From positions 318,719 through 382,718 of the forward strand of contig NZ_JACDUL010000002.1 of assembly GCF_013760955.1 (NCBI RefSeq): a DNA stretch of 64,000 nt, given 5' to 3'. The position numbers and the translations under genes are program-made. The notes below the pieces were generated by a model that was not told where the DNA came from, ran no database searches, and was given only the letters and a program-made list of their open reading frames with translations. This document shows positions 561-34,198 of this stretch, piece by piece. This DNA comes from Methanococcus maripaludis. Its GTDB lineage: Archaea > AGJL01 > Methanococci > Methanococcales > Methanococcaceae. Within the stretch, counting starts at the first letter, position 1, and the number at the start of each line of letters is the position of its first letter.

Positions 561-1158
561 TCCCTGACGGGAGGGTGTTCCAAGTGGCTCGCCTCACACC
601 TTTTTCTAGGTGTGGGCTTTCCACACAATTTGGGAGAATGACCACAGAACACCTAAGTCTGAGGTATAGCGGATTTATGAATGGCTTCGCCATTTATTCA
701 TTTAAGAATGCGTTAAAGTAATCGATTAAAAATGATTCGATTGCTCTCGCAGGTCGCGACCTGCTCAGGAGTTTCTCGAACTTTCGAAGATTGATTTTAT
801 TTTTTAATTTGTTCGCAAGTTCTCCGAAACCCCGCGCAATCTGGGAACTGTTCAGAGGTCAAGCCATAGCTTATACACCCCTTCGGGTGTATGTCGCCAT
901 ATGGCGAATTTTGTGCTTAGGGCGGATTGATTTTATCGCCCTTCGGGCTAATGCTACGGTAATACGGTTTAGACTGCCCTTTGACCATCTAAACCGATTT
1001 TCCGCCTTTATCGGGTTTTGCCCTTCGGGTTCCCTCGCTAGACTCGGCAAAACCTCGTAAAGCGAAAAATCTTAATGGTTTAGCTGGAGCCAAAGGTCGG
1101 AGAGAATACTAATCCCTACGGGGTTTAATTTGTATATTGGATTTTATTCCCTTCGGGG
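561..1158. repeat. Dense array of GC-rich hairpins in a gene-free zone
   Basis: The gene-free stretch 180-1576 contains, between 561 and 1158, at least ten inverted repeats of unusual quality. They are 595-601/608-614; 680-685/689-694; the 16-bp palindrome GCAGGTCGCGACCTGC at 749-764; 873-880/885-892 (8 bp, loop CTTC); the 14-bp palindrome TCGCCATATGGCGA at 894-907; 919-924/937-942 overlapping GCCC-TTC-GGGC at 938-948; 965-973/988-996 (9 bp); 1014-1022/1046-1054 (9 bp) enclosing CCCTTCGGG; and CCC-TAC/TTC-GGG units near 1114 and 1149. The block is much richer in G+C than its surroundings. Reading frames here are interrupted by the palindromes and resemble nothing. From 180 to 560 I see nothing clear. 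From 1160 to 1576 there are only two weak inverted repeats (1374-1380/1415-1421 and 1483-1487/1493-1497). A replication origin or structured RNA is possible. Confidence 0.7.
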
Positions 1159-3155: not shown

Positions 3156-4370
3156 TTAAAAAAACCTCTTGGAATTACAACACGGGCAGGTGTATGACCC
3201 GTCATCACTATCAAAATACATGAGCCATCCACAATTGCAAACAAAATATTTTCCAAGAACTGATTTTAAGAAATTAATCATATCGGTTTTTACGTAAACA
3301 CCCCTTTTGTCCCCTTTTTCAATTAATCCACGTTTTAAAAGTTTATTTCTTAATCCCTGATTGTCTTTATCAAAAGTCATTTCTCCAATATTGCCATAAA
3401 TTAAGAATTTCAGATAATCCTTTTCAAGATTAAAAGCTAGGGCAAATTGAGTTAGTAAATCCTCGTGGTTTAGTTTGAAAGGGGTTATTTTATCTAAACT
3501 CAATCCATAGAGTTTTAAAACATCATGAATTGCACATAAAATGTGTTGTTCTAACATTTCAGGAGTTGAAAGTTTTAGGTAATCACTTGCAAAATTTTTA
3601 TGCAGCGTTATTTCCATTCTGCAAATTCCCGGAGCTTTTTGATAGAACTTCAATTGAGATTTTATTTTTTTAGAATTTTTGTTAAAGTACATAGTTCTTG
3701 TTAAATCGGAATGTTTGACTACTGATTTACATTTTGCAACATCTGAAAGCCATTCATACTCCATGACATCCCTATGAAGATATTCGCAAGGAATTTCTAT
3801 TGATTTTGGTGTAACGTCAATTTTTGTTAATTCGTAGTTAAACAGCTTTTTAATTAATTTTTGGTATTCTCTTCTAATTTCAAGGCATGATATATAGTAG
3901 AGATGTGCAAAATCTTTTAAAAGTTGTTTATTGTCCGTGTAATCGACAGGTAGAAAGTTTGTATCGTGAAAACCATAGTTTGGTTTTTTGATATTTTGCT
4001 TTTTCCGGTAGTATTTGAGCATATTAACGTAAACTATTGCCATGTGTGGCTCTCTCATGGATATCTGCATCCATGCAATATTTTCGCCCTCAAAATTTTC
4101 TAAGGGAAATTGTAAACCCGAAGTATGACCCCGTTTGTCTTCTGTCCTACATTTAAAGTGTTCCCATTTTTGATAAACGTCTTTTCTGTAAGTTTCTGAA
4201 CCTTTTGGAATGGAATTATTTCTTTTCCATTCATCGATTTGTTTGTGTATCTCGTCAGAATATACTGTAAACGTACATCTATCAAGTGTTATTCTCGGGT
4301 CATTTAGTGTTGGATATTTCGGGTTTACGTTTTCATGAATTTTGGGTCTTAATTCGGCTAATGCTTCCAT
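3156..4370 (-). CDS. Plasmid/phage Rep-like protein with C-terminal zinc ribbon
   Basis: About 404 residues from the ATG at 4370. The frame extends to a TTG at 4394, but the site GGAGAAGGT ahead of the ATG and the TAAA-ATG junction with the preceding gene favour 4370. The block LKFYQKAPGICRMEITL near residues 243-259 fits the K-x-Y-x-K...R-x-E signature of replication initiators of the filamentous-phage gene II / phage CRI type (family knowledge, matched by eye). No HUH motif is apparent. The end carries CxC...CxxC (CNCGWLMYF and CPCCNSKRFF), a probable zinc ribbon. It is the largest gene of the minus-strand operon. The replication role is inference; a different DNA-binding protein remains possible. 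Confidence 0.5.
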   Translation of the reverse strand: MEALAELRPKIHENVNPKYPTLNDPRITLDRCTFTVYSDEIHKQIDEWKRNNSIPKGSETYRKDVYQKWEHFKCRTEDKRGHTSGLQFPLENFEGENIAWMQISMREPHMAIVYVNMLKYYRKKQNIKKPNYGFHDTNFLPVDYTDNKQLLKDFAHLYYISCLEIRREYQKLIKKLFNYELTKIDVTPKSIEIPCEYLHRDVMEYEWLSDVAKCKSVVKHSDLTRTMYFNKNSKKIKSQLKFYQKAPGICRMEITLHKNFASDYLKLSTPEMLEQHILCAIHDVLKLYGLSLDKITPFKLNHEDLLTQFALAFNLEKDYLKFLIYGNIGEMTFDKDNQGLRNKLLKRGLIEKGDKRGVYVKTDMINFLKSVLGKYFVCNCGWLMYFDSDDGSYTCPCCNSKRFF

Positions 4371-4371
4371 T

Positions 4372-4812
4372 TTAAAGACCTTCTCCGAAAACAATTTCTT
4401 TTACTAAATCTTCGTTTAGATTCATGACTTTTGCATTTTCTAAAATCTGAGTTTTACTCATTCCCCCATTTTTGAGGAGTTTTAAGTTTTCTATGTTTTC
4501 AATATCTGCGTAATAGTCTACAAGTTGTTTTACTTCTTCATTTTCTTGATATTCGTTTATTATTGTTTTTATATCAAGATATGAGAACTGTAAAAAGCCG
4601 TAGTTTTTTGTACCGCCTGAAATATTAATCCTGCCTTTTGCTTTCAAAGATTTGATATAATCTTTATCGGGATATCCTTTTGAATTTTTGATAATATTTC
4701 CCTTAGCGTCCTTTTTGTCTATGGCTTCAGTTCCGGGAAAAAGTTTCACTGACCCGTGAGGGAGCTGAATTTCTATAACTTCTGGAATCTGTTCTAGGTT
4801 CGGGGCTTCCAT
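4372..4812 (-). CDS. Hypothetical protein of the Rep-like operon
   Basis: 146 residues from an ATG preceded by AAGGTGTTAGGAT. The product is not recognised. It has a charged middle (KKDAKGNIIKNSKGYPDKDY) and a C-terminal helical part with MSKTQILENAKVMNLNEDLV, which could be a small helix-turn-helix-like or protein-contact segment. Its first 86 bases overlap the end of the preceding gene in another frame. Its stop is one base from the ATG of the Rep-like gene, so translation is probably coupled. A role in copy control or replication is a guess from position only. Confidence 0.55.
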   Translation of the reverse strand: MEAPNLEQIPEVIEIQLPHGSVKLFPGTEAIDKKDAKGNIIKNSKGYPDKDYIKSLKAKGRINISGGTKNYGFLQFSYLDIKTIINEYQENEEVKQLVDYYADIENIENLKLLKNGGMSKTQILENAKVMNLNEDLVKEIVFGEGL

Positions 4813-5415: not shown

Positions 5416-5970
5416 ATGTTACGACTGATTGCAAAAAAGCATGTAAAAGAAATATTAAGATTATTAGAATCAAACGATGAAATGTATTTTAGTGAAATTA
5501 AAAAAGCTTTAGAACTTAATCCAAGAAATTTAACAGATTTATTAAACGAATTATACGAAAGTAAGTTAATTAATAAAAGAATAGATGAAGATAATGTTAA
5601 ACTTTCAAAAGTTTATTATAGAATTACATATGAGGGTAAACTTATTTTAGATGTCTATGAGATGCTTGAAGACTTAGAAGGAAAAACTAATTTTGTTGCT
5701 TTAATAAAATATCAGAACGAAAAACTCTTTGAAAAAATTCAAAAATTTGAAGAAGGAGATATTATTTCTGCCAGAGCTACAATAGGGCCCAATTCGGCAA
5801 TTTTAGATTTCAGATTAGTAGAAAAAGATGGGGAAAAGACACTGGAGGTAAGCGACTTCTCTAAGGGACTCGCAGAAGAACTTTTTGTATATGGTAATGA
5901 TAGGATTATAACAGTTTATGAAATTTTAAAAAAGATAGGAACAGTTGAAAACCTTTACCCTACCAAATAA
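5416..5970 (+). CDS. Winged-helix transcriptional regulator of the island
   Basis: 184 residues, start ATG with GTGA ten bases ahead. Residues 10-75 form a winged helix-turn-helix (KEILRLLESNDEMYFSEIKKALELNPRNLTDLLNEL then a wing with YYRITYEGK), like HxlR/ArsR-type archaeal regulators. The rest is a longer alpha/beta domain (IISARATIGPNSAILDFRLVEKDG) that I do not recognise and that may sense a ligand or partner. It is divergent from the Rep-like operon, with palindromes between them, so it is probably the repressor governing plasmid functions. No membrane segment or zinc motif is present. Confidence 0.75.
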   Translation: MLRLIAKKHVKEILRLLESNDEMYFSEIKKALELNPRNLTDLLNELYESKLINKRIDEDNVKLSKVYYRITYEGKLILDVYEMLEDLEGKTNFVALIKYQNEKLFEKIQKFEEGDIISARATIGPNSAILDFRLVEKDGEKTLEVSDFSKGLAEELFVYGNDRIITVYEILKKIGTVENLYPTK

Positions 5971-9740: not shown

Positions 9741-10142
9741 TTAAGCAATCGCACTTGTTGCCTGAATATTAAATGATTCGTTTGAAAGCCCATATTCATT
9801 AAGAGCTTTTGCGTTTATTGACTTTTCAAATGGTTTATTTCTTTTTAAAACTTCTAAAATTATGTTTATTTTAACGGTTTCTTTGTAAACTTCTATAAGT
9901 CCGCTTGTTCCAATAATGTTGCTTAAATCAAATTTAGTTACTCCAAATATTTCAGAAGCATCAATTATTTCTACACCAGTTATTATTTTTTCCCCTGTTT
10001 TAGTTACACCCATATCTAAATAGATATTATCTACTTCGATTGTGTGATCGTATTCGGCTTCAATGTTTTTTCTTTTGATATACATTGCATCAGCGAGAGG
10101 ATCATAATTTAAAGTTACATCTTTACCTTCAAATTTACTCAT
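9741..10142 (-). CDS. DUF2283 protein, antitoxin-like
   Basis: 133 residues, ATG with GAGGAC ahead. The DUF2283 signature is clear: LNYDPLADAMYIK near residue 11 and later a ...TGVEIIDASEIFG segment (family pattern YDPEADALYI ... GIEIL-AS). Downstream of the domain is about 50 residues of unrecognised helical tail. It overlaps the end of the DUF4258 gene by 8 bases. DUF2283 genes commonly sit next to DUF4258 genes and the pair is regarded as toxin-antitoxin-like; which partner neutralises which is not shown by the sequence. The position beside an integrase fits a stability module. Confidence 0.75.
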   Translation of the reverse strand: MSKFEGKDVTLNYDPLADAMYIKRKNIEAEYDHTIEVDNIYLDMGVTKTGEKIITGVEIIDASEIFGVTKFDLSNIIGTSGLIEVYKETVKINIILEVLKRNKPFEKSINAKALNEYGLSNESFNIQATSAIA

Positions 10143-10431
10143 GTTTTGTCCTCCGTTTAGAATCTTGGGGAATTGGTGAAATAAAGTAGAATTTATTGAA
10201 TCTGTATGCTATAACGAGAATAATGTCTTTTTTTGAATCATATTCATAATATAATTTAAATGTATCAGAATTTTGATTAATTATTCCTTTACACTTTTTA
10301 GTTTTGATTATATTATAAAGTTCATCAAATTTAAAATTTCTTTCTTTCAACCTATGAACAAAGTGTTCAGTTAGTTCATAATTGGTTTTGGAAAGTGTTT
10401 TTATAATTTCTAAAAATTCTTCAATTTCCAT
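10135..10431 (-). CDS. DUF4258 protein, toxin-like
   Basis: 98 residues, ATG behind TTTGTGAAA. The pattern LTEHFVHRLKERNFKFDELYNII and the following beta strands (FKLYYEYDSKKDIILVIAYRF) fit DUF4258, a small fold related to RelE/HigB-like toxins (H-x(3)-R-x(3)-R signature, family knowledge). It is first in a two-gene unit with the DUF2283 gene, overlapping by 8 bases, the usual arrangement for such pairs. The target, if any, cannot be read from the sequence. It is transcribed in the same direction as the integrase upstream. Confidence 0.75.
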   Translation of the reverse strand: MEIEEFLEIIKTLSKTNYELTEHFVHRLKERNFKFDELYNIIKTKKCKGIINQNSDTFKLYYEYDSKKDIILVIAYRFNKFYFISPIPQDSKRRTKHE

Positions 10432-10490: not shown

Positions 10491-10537
10491 TTTAAAAAAA
10501 TAAGAATTAGAAATTAATTTCCATTACTCTTTGATAC
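10491..10537. repeat. Copy 2 of 47-bp repeat (integrase 3' end)
   Basis: This is the partner of the copy at 8244-8290. It contains the integrase stop codon, its last ten codons and 16 downstream bases, with the 12-bp palindrome GAAATTAATTTC at 10510-10521. The interval between the copies is 2.2 kb and carries the toxin-antitoxin-like pair and the structured gene-free zone. Confidence 0.7.
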
Positions 10538-11355
10538 TCTCTTTGCAGAGCTTCTTTGTTTTTGTGCAGATATATCGAAGTTGTGGATAAATCTTCATGA
10601 CCCAAAATTAAAGAGAGTGATTTTAAGTCAATTCCACGTTCTAACATGCTTGTAGCAAATGTATGTCTTAGAATGTGGGGCGTTATCCTAATATGTATGT
10701 TTGGAGCTACTTCGTTAATGTATTCTTTATATAATGTTAGACTTCTCTGTGAAAAATGTCCCCTGTAAACTCCAAGAAATAAATTATCACATTTTGGATC
10801 TCGATAACTTCTTTCCTTGATATATTCCCTTAAGTGAAATGCCAAATCCCTATCAAAAAATACATATCTATCTTTTTTACCTTTTCCAGAACCGATAAAT
10901 GCAATTTTTGAATCCAAATCTACATCTTGAACTTTGAGGTTTACAAGTTCAGATATTCGAACTCCGGTTTTAAGGATAAACATAGTAATTACATAGTAGT
11001 CGTATCTTTTGATATTTGATAAAAGATAGTTTGCTTGGGAAGTAGTTAAATAATTTCTTTCCTTTTTTTCACGTCTGAGGGTCTTTAAAAACTTTTTAAC
11101 TGGATTGTCCAGTAAATATTTTTCTTCAATTCCCCAGTCATAAAATCGGCTTACTGTTCCAAGTACTGACATTTTACTATTTTTAGTTGCTTTGTGATTT
11201 GTATAAAATAAAATGACATCATTTACCATGACATCTCGCCATCTTTTATTGGCATACTTTTGGAAAGTTCTTAATCCATATTTATACGAGTTTATTGTGG
11301 ATTTAGAAAGTCCTGTACAAAATTCTAAGTATCTTTTAGAGATTTCATCTTGCAT
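10507..11355 (-). CDS. Tyrosine recombinase/integrase
   Basis: 282 residues, ATG with ACAGGTG ahead. The N-terminal SAM-like core-binding domain (residues 1-85: STINSYKYGLRTFQKYA) is followed by the catalytic domain. The catalytic residues are recognisable: Arg in TGVRISEL, a beta-hairpin Lys in GKGKKDR, H-x-x-R in TPHILRHTFATS, His in LGHEDL, and the nucleophile Tyr in TTSIYLH. It is full length and apparently intact, of the XerC/D-like archaeal type. It presumably integrates and excises the island. It lies 15 bases after a small DNA-binding-like gene. Its last 31 bases are repeated at 8260-8290, which suggests the attachment site overlaps the gene's end. Confidence 0.9.
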   Translation of the reverse strand: MQDEISKRYLEFCTGLSKSTINSYKYGLRTFQKYANKRWRDVMVNDVILFYTNHKATKNSKMSVLGTVSRFYDWGIEEKYLLDNPVKKFLKTLRREKKERNYLTTSQANYLLSNIKRYDYYVITMFILKTGVRISELVNLKVQDVDLDSKIAFIGSGKGKKDRYVFFDRDLAFHLREYIKERSYRDPKCDNLFLGVYRGHFSQRSLTLYKEYINEVAPNIHIRITPHILRHTFATSMLERGIDLKSLSLILGHEDLSTTSIYLHKNKEALQREYQRVMEINF

Positions 11356-11370
11356 TTTAAAACACCTGTT

Positions 11371-11901
11371 TTAAAGTTCTTGAAACTCTACACTTGCGAA
11401 TCTGCCACTTGGATTTTCAAAAGCTATAAATTTATCTCCCCTTCTTTCGATGTAGTCATTAAATAACGGGTCTTGTATGACCACTTCTCTAAACATGTTG
11501 ACCAATCTTGGATTATCAGTGATTCCCATTTTTTCTACTAATTCCGCAAATGTTAAAGTTTGAGGGTACACATTTCCGATGATTTCAAATGCTTTATCGA
11601 TTAATTCTCTCTTTTCTTTTCCTGTTGAGTTCTCACGTAATTCTCTTGATATATGGTGTACCGATTTGAGTAATTTGTCTTGTGTTGCGTTGTTTTTCAA
11701 TTCTAGGGTGTTTAAAATGTTTAATATATGGTCTAACTTATCAGTTATGTTTGGATTTTTTTCTTTCTCGTAGTTTTTGAGAGTAAATACTATTGAAAAC
11801 CTTATAAAGTCGCTAAAACTATTAAAACCTAGTTCTTTAGATTCTTTTTTGTAAAGTTTTAGTTTTTCTTCGTCATGGAAGTAAACTTCTGTTCTAGGCA
11901 A
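11371..11901 (-). CDS. Ribbon-helix-helix-like partner of the integrase
   Basis: About 176 residues from a TTG at 11901 with GGTGG just ahead; an upstream in-frame TTG at 11916 lacks a good site. The N-terminal 45 residues (RTEVYFHDEEKLKLYKKESKELGFNSFSDFIRFSIVF) look like a ribbon-helix-helix unit: a short strand, then two helices with the typical GFNSFSDFIRF turn. A charged helical middle (possible coiled coil) and a C-terminal domain follow. Its position directly before the integrase suggests a repressor or excision factor, which is inference. The stretch 11917-12057 has an ATGGTAA/TTACCAT inverted repeat that may be its operator. Confidence 0.6.
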   Translation of the reverse strand: MPRTEVYFHDEEKLKLYKKESKELGFNSFSDFIRFSIVFTLKNYEKEKNPNITDKLDHILNILNTLELKNNATQDKLLKSVHHISRELRENSTGKEKRELIDKAFEIIGNVYPQTLTFAELVEKMGITDNPRLVNMFREVVIQDPLFNDYIERRGDKFIAFENPSGRFASVEFQEL

Positions 11902-12057
11902 CTTACCACCTGCCAAATATTTTAATAAGTACAGTATATATAGTATGGTAAACGTCGAAATCTACGTTATATTACCATGATAAGACTTATGGAATTTAGA
12001 TAATCATTATTCTTTGAAAAACATTAAAATCATTTGGAAAATTTGGAAGAGATACGT

Positions 12058-24617: not shown

Positions 24618-24926
24618 GTGAGTGCTATAGATACCATTAGGGAAATAAAGCATGCAGAAAATAATGCTGTGAATGCGATAGAAGAAGCTAAGAAAAAAGC
24701 AGCAGAAATAAAGCTTGCTGCAATAGAAGAAGGTAAAACTATTATTTCTGACGCTGAAACTACTGCAGAAGCATCTGCGAAAGAATTAGTTTCTAAATAC
24801 GAAAAAGAAGCTAAAGAAAAAGCCGATGAAATAATGGCTAAAGAAGGCAAAGCAATTGCTGAAATGGCAAACATTGCTAAAGTCAAAATATTAAACATCA
24901 AATTGGAAGATGTAATAGAATTCTAA
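24618..24926 (+). CDS. ahaH: A-type ATP synthase subunit H
   Basis: 102 residues starting with GTG behind the very strong site AAAGGAGGT. The protein is nearly all coiled coil rich in Ala, Glu and Lys (EAKKKAAEIKLAAIEEGKTI, ETTAEASAKELVSKYEKEAKEKADEI). Subunit H pairs with E to make the peripheral stalk connecting the catalytic head to subunit I. It is the first gene of the nine-gene operon, 24 bp before the ahaI reading frame. Confidence 0.88.
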   Translation: MSAIDTIREIKHAENNAVNAIEEAKKKAAEIKLAAIEEGKTIISDAETTAEASAKELVSKYEKEAKEKADEIMAKEGKAIAEMANIAKVKILNIKLEDVIEF

Positions 24927-24959
24927 TTTCCCGTTGTCAAAACTTGAAAGGTGGTTTTA

Positions 24960-27020
24960 TTGAGACCCGCAAGAATGAACAAAATTAGAGCGGTCATCTT
25001 GGATGAAAAAGTGGATCCTGTCATTAGACAACTCCATGAAAGCGGGCTAGTGGAGTTATACGACTTATCTACGAAACTCGAAGACCCTGAATGGAATGCG
25101 CTTATGACGCCAGCTCCATCAGCCGAGTATGGTAGAAATGTTGCCTCATTGACAATTAAAGTAAGTAGAATATTAGACTTATTTTCAAACGTCAGTGTAG
25201 GAGAAAAAGCAGGTCTTTCAGGCGTACTTAACCCAAAAGTACCCGCAAAGAAGAAACTTTCATTTTCATCATCTGAAGAAATTATCTCCAATGTAGAAAA
25301 CGTTCTCGAGAGCGTTGAAGGAGAAATCTCAGAACCCGCTAGTAAGCTGGCCGAACTTGAAAATAGAAAAACTATTCTTGAAATGTTAAAAGACAGTGTT
25401 AAATATTTATCTGGTTTTGATCTTGATTTGAAATTCCTCGGGGAAGGATCTTACACATATATTGTTTCTGGACTTGTTTCACAAGAAAATATGTCTGAAT
25501 TAGAATCTTCATTAGAAGAAGCTACAGAAGGATACGTTGAAATTGTAAAAGGAAATCCAGTAAATAAAAGCGAAAAGGAACAAAAAATTCCAGTAATTGT
25601 CGCTACATTGAAACAATGTGCAGATGTTGTTAGCGCAGAACTTAGAAAGTCTGGTTTTGAAAGACTTGACATCGCTAATGTTGAAGGAACTCCATCAGAG
25701 ATTTTCAATGATACTGAAAAAGAACTTTTAGGTATCGAAAACGAAACAAAAGCTATTTTAGAAAAATTGAACGCACTTTCCAAAAAATGGACTGAAGAAG
25801 TCTTAGTTTTGCATGAAGTTCTTGAAATTGAAAAAGAAAGAGCTGAAGCATACTCAATGACTGGTAAAACCGAAAGGACGCACCTCATTGAAGCTTGGAC
25901 TCCTAAGAAACATGTTAAAAAGGTTCAGGAAATCATCGAAAGCGCTTCAGAAGGATACGCAGTTGTTGAAGTTTCAGAACCTGATGAACCAGTTGAAAAA
26001 ATACCAGTTATGCTCGACAATGCAAAAGCTGTAAAACCATTCGAAATGCTTACAGAAATGTACGCACCGCCAAAATACAACGAAATCGACCCTACAATGA
26101 TGATAATGCCTGGATTTTTAATATTCTACGGTATTATGCTTACTGATGCGGTTTATGGTTTATTGTTAACCTTGGCTGGTCTTGTACTCTGGAAAAGAAT
26201 GGGTAAAGTGAGCAATGGTGCATACAACTTGGGATATATATTAACACTCTCAGGTCTTTCAACAGTATTCTTTGGAATATTAACAGGTGGCTACCTTGGT
26301 GACTTTATGTACCAGTTCCTTGGAATGGACATCTACACTACAGGATTTGCGCTTGTAAACCCGCTTGGTGAAAGCACATACATCAGTGCAGCAAAACCAT
26401 TACTCAGTCTTGGTGGAATTGATGTAAACAATGGACCTATGGCAATCTTGTTATTCTCAATTGTAGCAGGTATTATTCACCTATTCATTGGATTAACAGT
26501 TGGTCTTAAGGAATCATTGTCAAAAGGATCAGTTTTAGATGCATTCTTGAATCAAGGTATGTGGATATTATTGATACTTGCAATAGTTGCTACAGTAGTA
26601 ACCGGAAACATGATGATTGCAGGCGGTGCAGTAATCGCAGTAATCGCATTATGTATGATTAAAGGATTCATGAATGGTGGCATTCTCGATGCTTTACTCG
26701 GTGCAATGGATATTACAGGATTTTTAGGTAACGTTCTCTCTTACGCAAGGCTTTTAGCTTTATGTTTAGCTACAGGTGGTCTTGCAATGGCTGTAAACAT
26801 TATGGCTAAATTATTGGGAGATGCAGTTCCAGTAATCGGTATTTTAATTGCAATAGTAATGCTCGTATTTGGTCACGCATTCAACTTTGTTATGAATGGT
26901 CTTGGTTCATTCATCCACTCATTGAGGCTACATTACGTAGAGTTCTTTGGCCAATACTATGAAGGTGGAGGAAAGAGATTCTCCCCATTCAAAGCTAAAA
27001 GAGAATACACTTCAAATTAA
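24960..27020 (+). CDS. ahaI: A-type ATP synthase subunit I (a-subunit homologue)
   Basis: About 686 residues. The frame opens at a GTG at 24951 within the ribosome site GGTGGT, so the TTG at 24960 (start xRPARMNKIRAV) is the likelier start; ATG at 24975 is an alternative. The N-terminal half is a soluble coiled-coil stalk-binding part, the C-terminal half has about seven membrane helices. The essential Arg of the a-subunit lies in FIHSLRLHYVEFF near residue 660. The protein forms the half channels conducting the coupling ion against the K ring. Confidence 0.95.
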   Translation: MRPARMNKIRAVILDEKVDPVIRQLHESGLVELYDLSTKLEDPEWNALMTPAPSAEYGRNVASLTIKVSRILDLFSNVSVGEKAGLSGVLNPKVPAKKKLSFSSSEEIISNVENVLESVEGEISEPASKLAELENRKTILEMLKDSVKYLSGFDLDLKFLGEGSYTYIVSGLVSQENMSELESSLEEATEGYVEIVKGNPVNKSEKEQKIPVIVATLKQCADVVSAELRKSGFERLDIANVEGTPSEIFNDTEKELLGIENETKAILEKLNALSKKWTEEVLVLHEVLEIEKERAEAYSMTGKTERTHLIEAWTPKKHVKKVQEIIESASEGYAVVEVSEPDEPVEKIPVMLDNAKAVKPFEMLTEMYAPPKYNEIDPTMMIMPGFLIFYGIMLTDAVYGLLLTLAGLVLWKRMGKVSNGAYNLGYILTLSGLSTVFFGILTGGYLGDFMYQFLGMDIYTTGFALVNPLGESTYISAAKPLLSLGGIDVNNGPMAILLFSIVAGIIHLFIGLTVGLKESLSKGSVLDAFLNQGMWILLILAIVATVVTGNMMIAGGAVIAVIALCMIKGFMNGGILDALLGAMDITGFLGNVLSYARLLALCLATGGLAMAVNIMAKLLGDAVPVIGILIAIVMLVFGHAFNFVMNGLGSFIHSLRLHYVEFFGQYYEGGGKRFSPFKAKREYTSN

Positions 27021-27073
27021 TTAAAAAAATGAAAAATAATCTAATATGAATGATTCGAAACGAGGTGCTTATG

Positions 27074-27742
27074 ATGGTATTTGAAAACCCATTATTACTC
27101 GGAGCTATAGGTGCTGGTTTAGCAGTAGGTATCGCTGGTCTCGGTTCAGGTATCGGTGCTGGTATCACAGGTGCTAGCGGTGCTGGTGTCGTTGCAGAAG
27201 ACCCAAACAAATTCGGTACTGCAATTGTTTTCCAGGCATTACCACAAACCCAAGGTCTCTATGGTTTCCTTGTCGCAATCTTAATCTTATTCGTATTCAA
27301 AAGCGCTCCTGAATGGGCAATGCTCGCTGCAGGTATCGGTACAGGTTTAGCTGGTTTATCAGCAATCGGTCAAGGTATCGCTTCAGCTGCTGGTTTAGGT
27401 GCTGTTGCTGAAGATGATGGAATTTTCGGTAAAGCAATGGTTTTCTCCGTTCTTCCAGAAACTCAGGCAATTTACGGTTTATTAGTTGCAATCCTTCTTT
27501 TAGTTGGAGTATTTGCAAGCCCAGGAGTTACAACAATTGCTGCACTCGGTGCTGGTTTAGCTGTTGGTTTCGCTGGTCTTTCAGGTATCGGTCAAGGTAT
27601 CACAGCTGCAGGTGCAATTGGAGCTACAGCTAGAGATCCTGATGCAATGGGTAAAGGTTTAGTTTTAGCAGTTATGCCGGAAACTTTCGCTATCTTCGGT
27701 TTATTGATAGCAATCTTGATCATGCTCGGTATCATGTTTTAA
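27074..27742 (+). CDS. ahaK: A-type ATP synthase subunit K (triple-hairpin rotor subunit)
   Basis: About 222 residues; ATG at 27074 follows GAGGTGCTT (the frame opens earlier at 27050). Three successive two-helix hairpins, each with a glycine-rich first helix (GAGLAVGIAGLGSGIG, GIGTGLAGLSAIGQGI, GAGLAVGFAGLSGIGQGI), make a triplicated c-type subunit, as known in M. jannaschii. The second helices read L-P-Q-T-Q in hairpin 1, L-P-E-T-Q in hairpin 2 and M-P-E-T in hairpin 3, so only two of three hairpins keep the ion-binding glutamate. That lowers ions per turn relative to helices in the ring. The C-terminus ends right at the last helix. Confidence 0.95.
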   Translation: MVFENPLLLGAIGAGLAVGIAGLGSGIGAGITGASGAGVVAEDPNKFGTAIVFQALPQTQGLYGFLVAILILFVFKSAPEWAMLAAGIGTGLAGLSAIGQGIASAAGLGAVAEDDGIFGKAMVFSVLPETQAIYGLLVAILLLVGVFASPGVTTIAALGAGLAVGFAGLSGIGQGITAAGAIGATARDPDAMGKGLVLAVMPETFAIFGLLIAILIMLGIMF

Positions 27743-27802
27743 TTAAAATAAACGAAACTCAGGGTTTCTAAATACTTTAAATCCAATTCCGAAGGTGTTA
27801 CG

Positions 27803-28414
27803 ATGGGAGCGGAAAAGATAACATCCAAAATCGTAGAAGATGCAAATAAAAATGCCGAAAAAATTTTGGCTGAAGCTCTTAATGAAAAAGAAGCAATATT
27901 AACTGAAGCTAAGGAAGAAGCTTCAAAAAAAGAGCAAGCAATAGCTAAAAAAGGAGAAAAAGATGCTGAAATGACTAAAAACAGAATTTTAGCTGAAGCA
28001 AGACTCTCCGCAAAGAAAAAATTGCTTGAAGAAAGAGAAAAAACTATCCAGTTGACTCTCGAAAAATTAGAGGAAGATTTAGTAAAATTACCTCAAAAAG
28101 AAGAATACAAAGACATTTTGTTGAAATTGATAATTTCCGGAGTTTACTCAGTAGGCGGCGGCGAATTAGAATTGTTACTCAACAAAAAAGACTTTGAAGT
28201 AATCGATGACTCAACACTTTGGGCTCTCGAAAAAGAAATGGAAGATAGACTCAAAAAAGTCACAGTATTGAAAAAAGGCGAAGCTAAATCTATTATTGGC
28301 GGTTGTATCATAAAAACTGCTGATAAAACAAAAGTATCTGACAACAGCCTCGAAGCAACATTTGAAAGGAATTTAGATTCAGTCAGAGCTAAAATCGCTG
28401 AAATGTTGTTCTAA
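27803..28414 (+). CDS. ahaE: A-type ATP synthase subunit E
   Basis: 203 residues, ATG after GAAGGTGTTAC. An N-terminal coiled coil (residues 1-95, rich in Glu/Lys/Ala) is followed by a globular C-terminal domain with [17 protein letters not shown] and [24 protein letters not shown], the conserved head-binding part. It forms the peripheral stalk with subunit H. The conserved G-G-x-[IV]-[IV] and D-N-[ST]-[LF] blocks support the call. Confidence 0.93.
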
Positions 28415-28424
28415 GGTGATTTAG

Positions 28425-29600
28425 ATGGTAGATGCTTTAACACAGTTAATGGAATCAGCAGGAATGCCTACTGATGTATTCATGACTTTATTTGTACTTG
28501 CAGGAATCGCTATATTCTTGGTTATTATGATCTTCCTGATAAGATACTTGTCAGAAACTGCTCCATTTGCTTACGTTAATGCAAGAGTAAGAAGTATGGA
28601 GTCTAGATTATTAAAAGACCACAAAATAAATGAATTAATCGAATCTGCAGGAACTACTGAGTTAATTGGATTCTTGGAAGATACCGACTACGGGCCATAC
28701 TTATCCGAAGTTATGGGGCAAAGTGAAGACCCAGTCGTTGTTGAAAAGGCATTGGATATTCATTTAGCACACGTTTACCAAACACTTGCAAATATCTCTC
28801 CAGATGGAGCAAGAAAAATATTAAAATTGCTTGAAAAGAAATTTGATGTTAAAAACATTAAAACACTTCTCAGAGCAAAATATGTTGGTTTGGATGCTGA
28901 AGAAACTTTCAAATTATTGATCCCACTTGGAACAATTCCTGAAAGCAAATTAAGAGAATTAAGTGAAACTAAAGCAATTGAAGAAATTGTAAGTGCTTTA
29001 GAAGGAACTGGTTATTCAAGCGTACTTTCAGAAGGATTAACACAATACGAGCAAAATGGCAAATTAACTACCCTTGAGATGTCACTCGATAAATTAATCC
29101 TTGAAAACCTCTGGAAAAACGTGAGTGTTGATGGTACCGAAAAAGACTTGTTCAAAGAATTTATCGGAACAATGATCGACATTGAAAACTTGAAAATCAT
29201 CCTTAAAGGAAAAGCTGATGGATTATCATCCGAAGCTATATCCAACTATACAACAAGCAAAGGATACGAACTTGCTTCTTGGAAGTTAAAAGAGCTCGCT
29301 GATGTAGAATCAATCGAAGGAGTTATCAGTTCACTTGAAGGCACAAAATATGCCCCAATGATGGCTGAAAACCTCGAAGAATTTGAAAAAACTAAATCAG
29401 TTTATGTATTTGAAAAAGCTCTTGACAGTTACTTGGTTAAAATGGGTAAAAAATTATCACTCAGACAGCCATTTGGAATAGGCCCGATAATTGGACTCAT
29501 TACCTCGAAAGAACTTGAGATAAGAAATTTGAAAATTATCATTAAAGGTAAAATCGAAGGCCTGTCTGCAAGTGAAATCAGGGAGATACTGGTATCCTAA
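28425..29600 (+). CDS. ahaC: A-type ATP synthase subunit C
   Basis: 391 residues, ATG with AAGGTGATTTAG ahead, 10 bp after ahaE. An N-terminal hydrophobic helix (MTLFVLAGIAIFLVIMIFLI) precedes the all-helical V-ATPase d/AC39 fold: YVNARVRSMESRL, NIKTLLRAKYVGLDAEE and NLKIIIKGKIEGLSASEI. The subunit links the central stalk (D, F) to the K ring. The N-terminal membrane helix is also seen in other Methanococcales proteins (recollection), and it may anchor the subunit. Confidence 0.93.
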   Translation: MVDALTQLMESAGMPTDVFMTLFVLAGIAIFLVIMIFLIRYLSETAPFAYVNARVRSMESRLLKDHKINELIESAGTTELIGFLEDTDYGPYLSEVMGQSEDPVVVEKALDIHLAHVYQTLANISPDGARKILKLLEKKFDVKNIKTLLRAKYVGLDAEETFKLLIPLGTIPESKLRELSETKAIEEIVSALEGTGYSSVLSEGLTQYEQNGKLTTLEMSLDKLILENLWKNVSVDGTEKDLFKEFIGTMIDIENLKIILKGKADGLSSEAISNYTTSKGYELASWKLKELADVESIEGVISSLEGTKYAPMMAENLEEFEKTKSVYVFEKALDSYLVKMGKKLSLRQPFGIGPIIGLITSKELEIRNLKIIIKGKIEGLSASEIREILVS

Positions 29601-29621
29601 AAACGATTGTAAAGTGATATT

Positions 29622-29921
29622 ATGAGAATCGGTGTAGTTGGAGATCCTGATGTAGTAGTTGGGTTCAGACTTGCTGGACTTACAGATGTCTACGAAGTTA
29701 AATCCCCTGAACAAGCTGCAAAGGCAATAGAAGAATTAAACAGCAACTCCGAAATAGGATTAATTATTACCACTGAGAGAATCGGTGAAGAAATAAGAGA
29801 TACTATTTCAGGTGTAAAAAAAGTTGTTGTAGAAGTACCTGACAAAAACGGTCCTATTGTCAGAGAAAATGATCCTGTGAAAGTATTAGTAAGAAACGCT
29901 GTTGGTGTTGACATTAAGTAA
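29622..29921 (+). CDS. ahaF: A-type ATP synthase subunit F
   Basis: 99 residues, ATG behind AAAGTGATATT. MRIGVVGDPDVVVGFRLAGL at the start and IGLIITTERIGEEIRDTI in the middle are diagnostic of the CheY-like subunit F/NtpG family. It sits on the central stalk with subunit D. Full length, 21 bp after ahaC and 15 bp before ahaA. Confidence 0.95.
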   Translation: MRIGVVGDPDVVVGFRLAGLTDVYEVKSPEQAAKAIEELNSNSEIGLIITTERIGEEIRDTISGVKKVVVEVPDKNGPIVRENDPVKVLVRNAVGVDIK

Positions 29922-29936
29922 TTCTGAGGTGAAAAT

Positions 29937-31697
29937 ATGGTCGTCGGTAAAATTATCAAAATATCCGGTCCGGTTGTTGTTGCCGAAGGCATGAAAGGTT
30001 CCCAGATGTTTGAAGTGGTTAAAGTAGGAAACGAAGGTTTAACCGGGGAAATCATTCAGTTAACTGAGGACGAAGCAATCATTCAGGTTTATGAAGAAAC
30101 CGCTGGTATCAAACCAGGAGAAGGAGTTACAGGAACTGGTGCTCCATTATCCGTAGAGCTCGGCCCTGGTATGTTAAAAGCAATGTACGATGGTATTCAA
30201 AGACCTTTAAACGAAATCGAAAATGCTACAGATTCAATTTACATCCCAAGAGGAGTAAGCGTTCCATCAATCTCAAGAGTAATTAAATGGGACTTTGAAC
30301 CTACTGCAGCAGTTGGAGATGAAGTTATAACTGGGGACGTTATCGGTACAGTTCAAGAAACTGCATCAATCGTTCACAAAATCATGATTCCTTTCGGAGT
30401 TAGCGGTAAAATCAAAGAAATTAAATCAGGCAGCTTCACTGTTGAAGAAACAGTTGCAGTTGTTGAAACCGCTGATGGCGAAAAAGAAATACAAATGATG
30501 CAAAAATGGCCTGTAAGAAAGCCAAGACCATCAAAAGGAAAACAAGCTCCAGTAATTCCATTAATTACTGGCCAAAGAGTTGAAGATACATTCTTCGGAC
30601 TTGCAAAAGGAGGTGCTTCAGCAATTCCAGGTCCATTCGGAAGTGGAAAAACTGTTACACAACACCAGCTTGCTAAATGGTCTGACGTGGATGTTGTGGT
30701 ATACATCGGTTGTGGAGAAAGAGGTAACGAGATGACAGAAGTTATCGAAGAGTTCCCACACTTGGATGATATCAAAACAGGAAACAAATTAATGGACAGG
30801 ACCGTATTAATTGCAAACACATCAAACATGCCGGTAGCTGCTAGGGAAGCTTCAGTATACACCGGAATTACAATTGCAGAATACTTCAGAGACCAAGGAC
30901 TCGGTGTTCTCTTAACTGCTGACTCAACATCAAGATGGGCAGAAGCAATGAGAGAGATCTCAGGTAGACTCGAAGAAATGCCTGGGGAAGAAGGATACCC
31001 TGCATACCTTTCATCAAAACTTGCTCAGTTCTACGAAAGAGCAGGAAGAGTTGAATGTTTAGGTTCAGAAAACAAACAAGGATTCGTATGTATTGTAGGT
31101 GCAGTATCACCACCAGGTGGTGACTTCTCAGAACCAGTTACATCAAACACATTAAGAATTGTTAAGGTGTTCTGGGCATTGGATGCAAACCTTGCAAGAA
31201 GAAGACACTTCCCTGCAATCAACTGGTTAACAAGTTACTCACTCTATATTGACGACATCGCTGGCTGGTGGCAACAAAACACCGCAGCAGACTGGAGATC
31301 ATTAAGAGATGAAGCAATGAGCTTACTCCAAAAAGAAGCTGAGCTCCAAGAAATTGTTCAACTTGTTGGTCCAGATGCACTTCCAGACAGAGAAAGAGTT
31401 ATCTTAGAAATTGCAAGAATGTTAAGAGAAGACTTCTTACAGCAAGATGCATACCACGAAGTAGACAGCTACTGTTCACCAATAAAACAGTACCACATGT
31501 TGAAAATCATCATGACGTTCTACAAGAAAGGTTTAGATGCAGTTGCTAAAGGTGCTGACCCAGCAGGTATTTCAGCTGTTACTGTAAAAGGAGACATTGC
31601 AAGAATGAAATACTTAGTTGAAGAAGAATTTGTAAACACGAAAGTACCTGAAATCATTAACAAAATGGAATCCGAATTAGGTGCTTTAATCAAATAA
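29937..31697 (+). CDS. ahaA: A-type ATP synthase catalytic subunit A
   Basis: 586 residues, ATG with GAGGTGAAAAT ahead. The Walker A loop [11 protein letters not shown] is at about 231-241, with the catalytic [10 protein letters not shown] (Glu) at about 261 and a Walker B-like [17 protein letters not shown] segment near 325. The extra non-homologous region typical of A subunits (residues 110-200) is present. It binds and hydrolyses or synthesises ATP in the A3B3 head. There is no intein, although this is a known intein site in archaea. Confidence 0.97.
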
Positions 31698-31731
31698 CCT
31701 AATTTAATTTTAAACTGTAAGGAGGGTTATC

Positions 31732-33120
<1,389 letters not shown>

Positions 33121-33151
33121 TTCAGAAGCTGAATTATTCCCATTTTATTAA

Positions 33152-33811
<660 letters not shown>

Positions 33812-33832
33812 TTCAACATCGCTGGTGGTTTT

Positions 33833-34198
33833 ATGTTCAGAATTACTGGAAAAATTAAGGAAATTGAAGAAAAAATTGAAAGCAAAAAACAGGGCGAAAC
33901 CAAACTAGAAATAGTTGGTCAGAAAGTCCCAGTTTTTGCAGCAGAAACTGTTGAAATTAAAGCAGGCGAAATTAAACCGATAAACATTTCGAAAATTTGC
34001 TTGCCTAAAAAAACAGTTTTGATGCCTTCTGCATACATTCAGCACAAATTAGGTAACATGGTATCCTTAGGAGAAGAAACCCCTGTTCCTTTCGAACATG
34101 AAAGATGTCTCGAATACGCAATCTTTGTTGCAGTAAAAGAAGGAACTATTAAAGAAGGAGAACTCATTGGAACCATTGTAGTACTTCATGCTGAATAA
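33833..34198 (+). CDS. DUF22 family protein
   Basis: 121 residues, ATG after GGTGGTTTT. The C-terminal half with PVPFEHERCLEYAIFVAVKEGTIKEGELIGTIVVL fits DUF22, a small beta-rich family found in methanogens; no reaction is assigned to it. The N-terminal part is charged (KIKEIEEKIESKKQ). It follows ahaD by 21 bp, so it is likely transcribed with the ATP synthase, but nothing shows that it is a subunit. Confidence 0.7.
   Translation: MFRITGKIKEIEEKIESKKQGETKLEIVGQKVPVFAAETVEIKAGEIKPINISKICLPKKTVLMPSAYIQHKLGNMVSLGEETPVPFEHERCLEYAIFVAVKEGTIKEGELIGTIVVLHAE

Follow-up and report, generated by a model that had tools for sequence, protein, structure and literature searches.

The intergenic region of the filamentous phages f1 and M13 carries, on the sense strand, a hairpin array with the packaging signal and both origins, beside an AT-rich flank. 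Rolling-circle plasmids of the pT181 and pC194 groups have a nick hairpin with an adjacent stem, and a strand-specific folded region from which the lagging strand is started. RepSNJ2 is a Rep_trans-like initiator with a TATA-binding protein (TBP) fold and a hairpin origin downstream (PMC13107129, NAR 2026). Outside Halobacteria, no convincing conserved downstream origin element is described for Rep-Arvir (PMC13107129). The Reps in a survey of the pT26-2 family were MCM, MCM-like or T26-22p, and no origin consensus was found (PMC6972569).

The locus considered here lies in a window of 64,000 nucleotides (G000:C2:318719-382718) from a 1.76-Mb genome of Methanococcus maripaludis. The initial annotation had drawn attention to a gene-free block at 561-1158 crowded with hairpins, and had offered three identities for it: a replication origin, a structured long RNA, or spreading small palindromic elements like the GC clusters of mitochondrial genomes.

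Composition and folding of the block

The block is GC-rich within AT-rich DNA, as annotated, with 45.5% GC in 561-1158 against 32.3% across the window. Folding of both strands gave z-scores of about -6 to -7 with either parameter set, namely -7.0 (plus) and -6.0 (minus) with RNA parameters and -7.2 (minus) and -6.5 (plus) with DNA parameters; in each case 0/20 shuffles per strand were as stable. Palindromes of 14-16 bp are present at 749-764 (GCAGGTCGCGACCTGC) and 894-907 (TCGCCATATGGCGA). The roughly ten near-perfect hairpins of the annotation came down to six that are strictly perfect (stem of at least 5 bp, loop of 3-8), and about ten are reached only when stems with longer loops or imperfect pairing, such as CGGTTTAGA...TCTAAACCG, are counted too. 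A hairpin density above chance was borne out against shuffles for stems of at least 6 bp (four, against a shuffle mean of 0.85; 4/300 shuffles reach four), but six perfect hairpins are also reached by some other windows of the same AT-rich sequence, so that the hairpin count alone is a weak to modest statistic. It is folding energy and covariation, not hairpin number, that carry the case for the block.

Two plus-strand ORFs of 84 and 89 aa overlap the block. Homologous copies differ from one another by many indels, and these ORFs are therefore unlikely to be genes. A decayed protein gene was rejected as its identity. The conserved feature extends over about 401-1170, beyond the block first reported.

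Location within an integrated element

The block was found inside an 11.7-kb integrated element (E0), with a candidate attachment site lying 249 bp away. The features of the region and of the element are as follows:

293-303, no strand: candidate attL core ATTTAGATAAT, an 11-bp direct repeat at both island ends
401-551, minus: AT-rich origin flank with a conserved block GGAAAACGCTTATTT (about 409-423) and a 7-bp stem (504-522), from an alignment of seven copies (A5)
552-572, minus: candidate double-strand (nick) origin, TCCC(GTCA)GGGA then TATTAATAG; motif confined to Rep-bearing elements
573-958, minus: hairpin array common to six alignable copies, with covariation and minus-strand DNA-type loops
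959-1170, minus: hairpin-array extension, matching L006 (blastn/MAFFT) and by eye also E9
3156-4394, minus: putative replication initiator (Rep), 412 aa with a C-terminal zinc ribbon, from weak profile matches and an AlphaFold2 model
5416-5970, plus: winged-helix regulator of the element (Pfam TFIIE_alpha/MarR above cut-off; homologues in E1-E5)
10507-11355, minus: tyrosine integrase (PF00589, E 1.8e-36; homologues in E1, E3, E4 and E5)
11371-11916, minus: small protein beside the integrase, kept in related elements (blastp), RHH-like by eye, with no Pfam match
11994-12004, no strand: candidate attR core ATTTAGATAAT, a direct repeat; site empty or differently filled in relatives

Segment 401-551 is a possible Rep-binding region, and 573-958 is proposed to be a single-strand origin and/or a packaging/transfer signal. 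Within the latter, 739-744 with 836-841 and 771-781 with 819-830 form a long-range composite helix.

Six copies of the region, that of E0 and those of E1-E5, sit at the edges of integrated elements and point inward, opposite to the main genes. Homologous Reps were found in all six, and related integrases in E0, E1, E3, E4 and E5. Direct repeats fitting attachment sites measure 19 bp in E3, 17 bp in E5, 11 bp in E0 and 10 bp in E1, those of E0 and E1 appearing weak taken alone. The repeat end and the beginning of the origin motif are 249 bp apart in E0 and E1, 248 bp in E3 and 247 bp in E5. At the matching host locus of genome G003, argS runs to the next host gene with no insert; in G004 the region is absent from that locus and other DNA lies in between. 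Lying inside the att repeats at near-constant spacing, and absent from the host locus in relatives, the region is part of the element.

Two small adjacent minus-strand ORFs at 9741-10431 resemble by eye a DUF2283/DUF4258 pair, which is toxin-antitoxin-like. Downstream of the element, host DNA at 24618-34198 holds genes that by eye resemble an A-type ATP synthase operon.

Copies of the region and covariation

Beyond the window, blastn detected five copies at 68-75% identity, of which three belong to G001, one to G004 and one to the genome of the window itself; the other genomes searched yielded none. Thus six copies from three genomes can be aligned; three more are recognisable by motif and hairpins only. 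All nine lie within elements that share a replication protein, and none was found outside such elements. Alignment shows the six to be copies of a single region of about 400 bp; in the window copy and L006 the similarity continues for about 200 bp more.

The structure common to both strands, read over the six copies, comprises 55 pairs with 95% of cells paired. Covariation across relatives, which the initial annotation had suggested looking for, is present: 19/55 pairs have changed on both sides among these few, related sequences, and 0/500 shuffles reach such values. The signal was lost when partners were slid by one to three columns.

Exact-pattern scans of the genome and of viral contigs found nothing, and blastn of the block against phages and plasmids gave no match, in collections from which close records may be missing. 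In pURB500 (L023), neither an alignable copy nor DNA-type mini-hairpins of the scanned kind turned up. Rfam gave no match to the block at gathering or permissive thresholds.

Candidate origin motif

At the edge of the array lies the motif GCCCGTCAGGGC+TAATAATAG, which on the Rep-sense strand reads GCCCGTCAGGGC then TAATAATAGTTA. Allowing up to three mismatches, 36 Methanococcales genomes contained seven matches, all in Rep-bearing elements, and the reversed control motif gave none in the same genomes. The match in G006 is new; it lies about 27 kb from the Rep of that genome and was found after the Rep had marked the element. Additional forms of the motif occur in G004 (four mismatches) and, more divergent, in E9.

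Rep homologues are encoded by 11 elements, the five beyond E0-E5 being in G006, G002, G013, G001 and G003. The region is present in 9/11 of these elements and its orientation relative to Rep is the same in all nine, as is the GNNA class of the nick-hairpin loop (9/9). The distance from origin to rep is 2.6-27 kb, unlike that of classic plasmids. No clear origin-region candidate was seen in E10. Element E7 (G002, L056 about 11220-11235) is nearly identical to E6 (G006, L055) around this site but is short of 317 bp, which include the whole region, between 9-bp GTTGTGCGT repeats; this is a natural deletion, and E7 is possibly a dead element. Judged by sequence, a conserved hairpin/nick motif that co-occurs with its apparent cognate Rep has the character expected of a rolling-circle origin.

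A shorter origin region occurs at L045:12440-12690, in a genome from a different genus within the family, where a nick-like motif and DNA-type loops are accompanied by little array. In E2, an ArdC-type anti-restriction gene (PF08401, PF18818; L009:10058-12040) adjoins the hairpin block, and its homologue in E3 (L010:10255-12321) is 75% identical. By analogy with leading regions, one may speculate that this gene is expressed from folded single-stranded DNA.

Replication protein

Two profiles matched the Rep of the window below their curated cut-offs, rep_II_X (TIGR01629) with E 2e-5 and Phage_CRI with E 0.0023; at the sequence level its similarity to known initiators is weak. The AlphaFold2 model has a pLDDT of 82.8 and a pTM of 0.76. 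When the model was compared with the PDB by Foldseek, RepDE (4cwe/4cwc) came top (E 6.9e-6), followed by TATA-binding proteins, and inovirus Reps were among the matches to viral structures. The predicted fold is thus TBP-like as in RepDE, the mark of a Rep_trans-type initiator; TM-scores are low (0.25-0.37 overall, 0.25-0.36 for RepDE), and for that reason the likeness to RepDE is taken as a resemblance of fold class. D38, E200/E204, Y251 and E261 are invariant and stand in the same order; they are candidates for the catalytic Tyr and acidic residues of a Rep_trans-type initiator.

The Rep-Arvir profile PF25227 (DUF7845) had no match in seven genomes at E<=10, with a positive Haloferax volcanii control; since it does not match, membership of Rep-Arvir is not claimed. 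Searches with Rep found nothing in plasmids and phages (tblastn) or in viral contigs, collections that may lack close records.

Loop classes

Loops of the forms cGNAg, cGNNAg and cGNABg are reportedly extra stable in DNA, as described by Hirao, Yoshizawa and Nakano. In seven copies, such loops cap 22/66 hairpins on the minus (Rep-sense) strand and 0/66 on the plus strand, these 66 not being independent as they fall into about seven hairpin families. The background in 913 other hairpins is 0.3% per strand. Within one hairpin the loop varies between GTTA, GACA, GCA and GAA without leaving the class, a rule that also holds for unrelated hairpins in G013 and E9. The minus-strand loops GTCA, GACA and GTTA are outside the RNA GNRA class. 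Mispairs in the shared helices (10 G-T against 4 A-C) lean to the plus strand, a difference that is not significant. The one-sided DNA-type loops, together with the edge motif, argue for a folded DNA strand rather than RNA; with all signals weighed, a single-stranded DNA form of the minus strand is favoured. Loop classes also offer a way to distinguish a folded DNA strand from RNA by sequence alone.

Alternative explanations

The main rival is that the plus strand of the element is transcribed here into a large structured non-coding RNA, comparable to GOLLD and ROOL, which phages carry. Such an RNA would account for the strong covariation, the RNA fold z of -7, the multiple copies on virus-like elements and the slight plus-strand excess of G-U over A-C (10 against 4). 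Against it, Rfam is empty of any described family that fits, promoter-like conservation upstream was not seen by eye in alignment A5, and the structure is continuous with a motif that resembles an origin. The plus-strand UUC, UGC and UNNC loops, moreover, are not stable in RNA, whereas those of the minus strand obey DNA rules. The long-RNA option ranks second behind the origin, and we regard it as unlikely. Less probable again is that the region acts only in packaging or export, in the manner of hairpin A of filamentous phages, with the true origin elsewhere. It adjoins a secretion/virion module in most elements, but its co-occurrence is with Rep and not with that module, and the edge motif resembles a nick site. 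E0 is small and without the module, and still has both region and Rep, which argues for a role in replication.

Two further explanations are very hard to sustain. Spreading palindromes like the mitochondrial GC clusters were suggested by GC-rich palindromes in an AT-rich genome, and what E6 has and E7 lacks is precisely the region, flanked by 9-bp GTTGTGCGT repeats. This option was rejected nonetheless: the copies are whole and alignable over about 400-600 bp, end to end, with one per element; those other than E6 are without such flanking repeats, none being shared; and the motif is absent elsewhere in the 36 genomes. A host RNA or locus used as an integration target would place the region close to an element edge, where it always is, but the idea is contradicted by its position inside the att repeats and by relatives whose corresponding host locus is without it.

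Proposed function

The explanation preferred here, with a probability of about 0.68, is that the block contains the origin from which an integrated, virus- or plasmid-like element replicates as a rolling circle. It is favoured over the other identities in the initial annotation by the integrated element, the rolling-circle-type Rep, the hairpin with an AT-rich nick-like motif and the DNA-type loops on one strand; the element context, the co-occurrence with Rep, the confinement of the motif to elements, the covariation and the one-sidedness of the loops are direct observations. The best reading of the sequence would be a double-strand origin joined to a large hairpin array for lagging-strand initiation or packaging.

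On this origin model, the integrase would excise the element as a circle, and Rep would bind the AT-rich flank at 401-551 and nick the minus strand at the hairpin and TAATAATAG motif (552-572). The Rep-sense strand would presumably be displaced, and the array of 400-600 nt would fold in it, capped by extra-stable DNA loops. Synthesis of the complementary strand may then begin at the folded array (single-strand origin), and/or the array may mark the strand for packaging or export. A wider proposal, advanced tentatively at somewhat below even odds, is that these elements form a new archaeal rolling-circle group with its own Rep family, in which a domain of 400-600 nt is under selection for its folding as single-stranded DNA. 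Its loops would be kept in the DNA-specific cGNAg/cGNNAg classes, and it would act at once as nick origin, as lagging-strand origin and as the mark for packaging or export.

Comparison with known systems

The pT26-2 family (PMC6972569) shares with these elements a T26-6p protein in E2, with homologues in E1 and E3, as well as the host order and an integrase. A Pfam search of E2 located the T26-6p domains PF22265, PF20984 and PF22092 at L009:14940-16970 (minus), which tie E2 to that family. E0 has none of the T26-6p module and for that reason is not filed under pT26-2. Unlike the family as surveyed, the elements have a Rep of another kind and a shared origin region.

Rep-Arvir of the SNJ2 betapleolipovirus resembles the present system in its conserved hairpin origin with a neighbouring inverted repeat near the element end, and RepSNJ2 and the window Rep have the same Foldseek matches (RepDE 4cwc, A0A345MNV4 and TBPs) (PMC13107129). 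The window Rep differs in the lack of PF25227, and its origin lies 2.6-27 kb from rep with a hairpin array of 400-600 nt. As earlier surveys found no conserved origin (PMC6972569; PMC13107129 outside Halobacteria), the region itself appears to be new, its principle being known.

Because the region, for which there is covariation evidence, is found in nine related elements of Methanococcales, rolling-circle replication of the group is directly testable, and these archaeal elements gain a conserved, testable candidate origin in a genetically tractable methanogen. The layout of candidate nick hairpin, adjacent stem and apparently strand-specific fold resembles that of the pT181 and pC194 origins, from which the present ones differ in their archaeal host and in belonging to integrated elements. 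The nearest analogy is the f1/M13 intergenic region, a likeness claimed for the layout only, the array here being larger.
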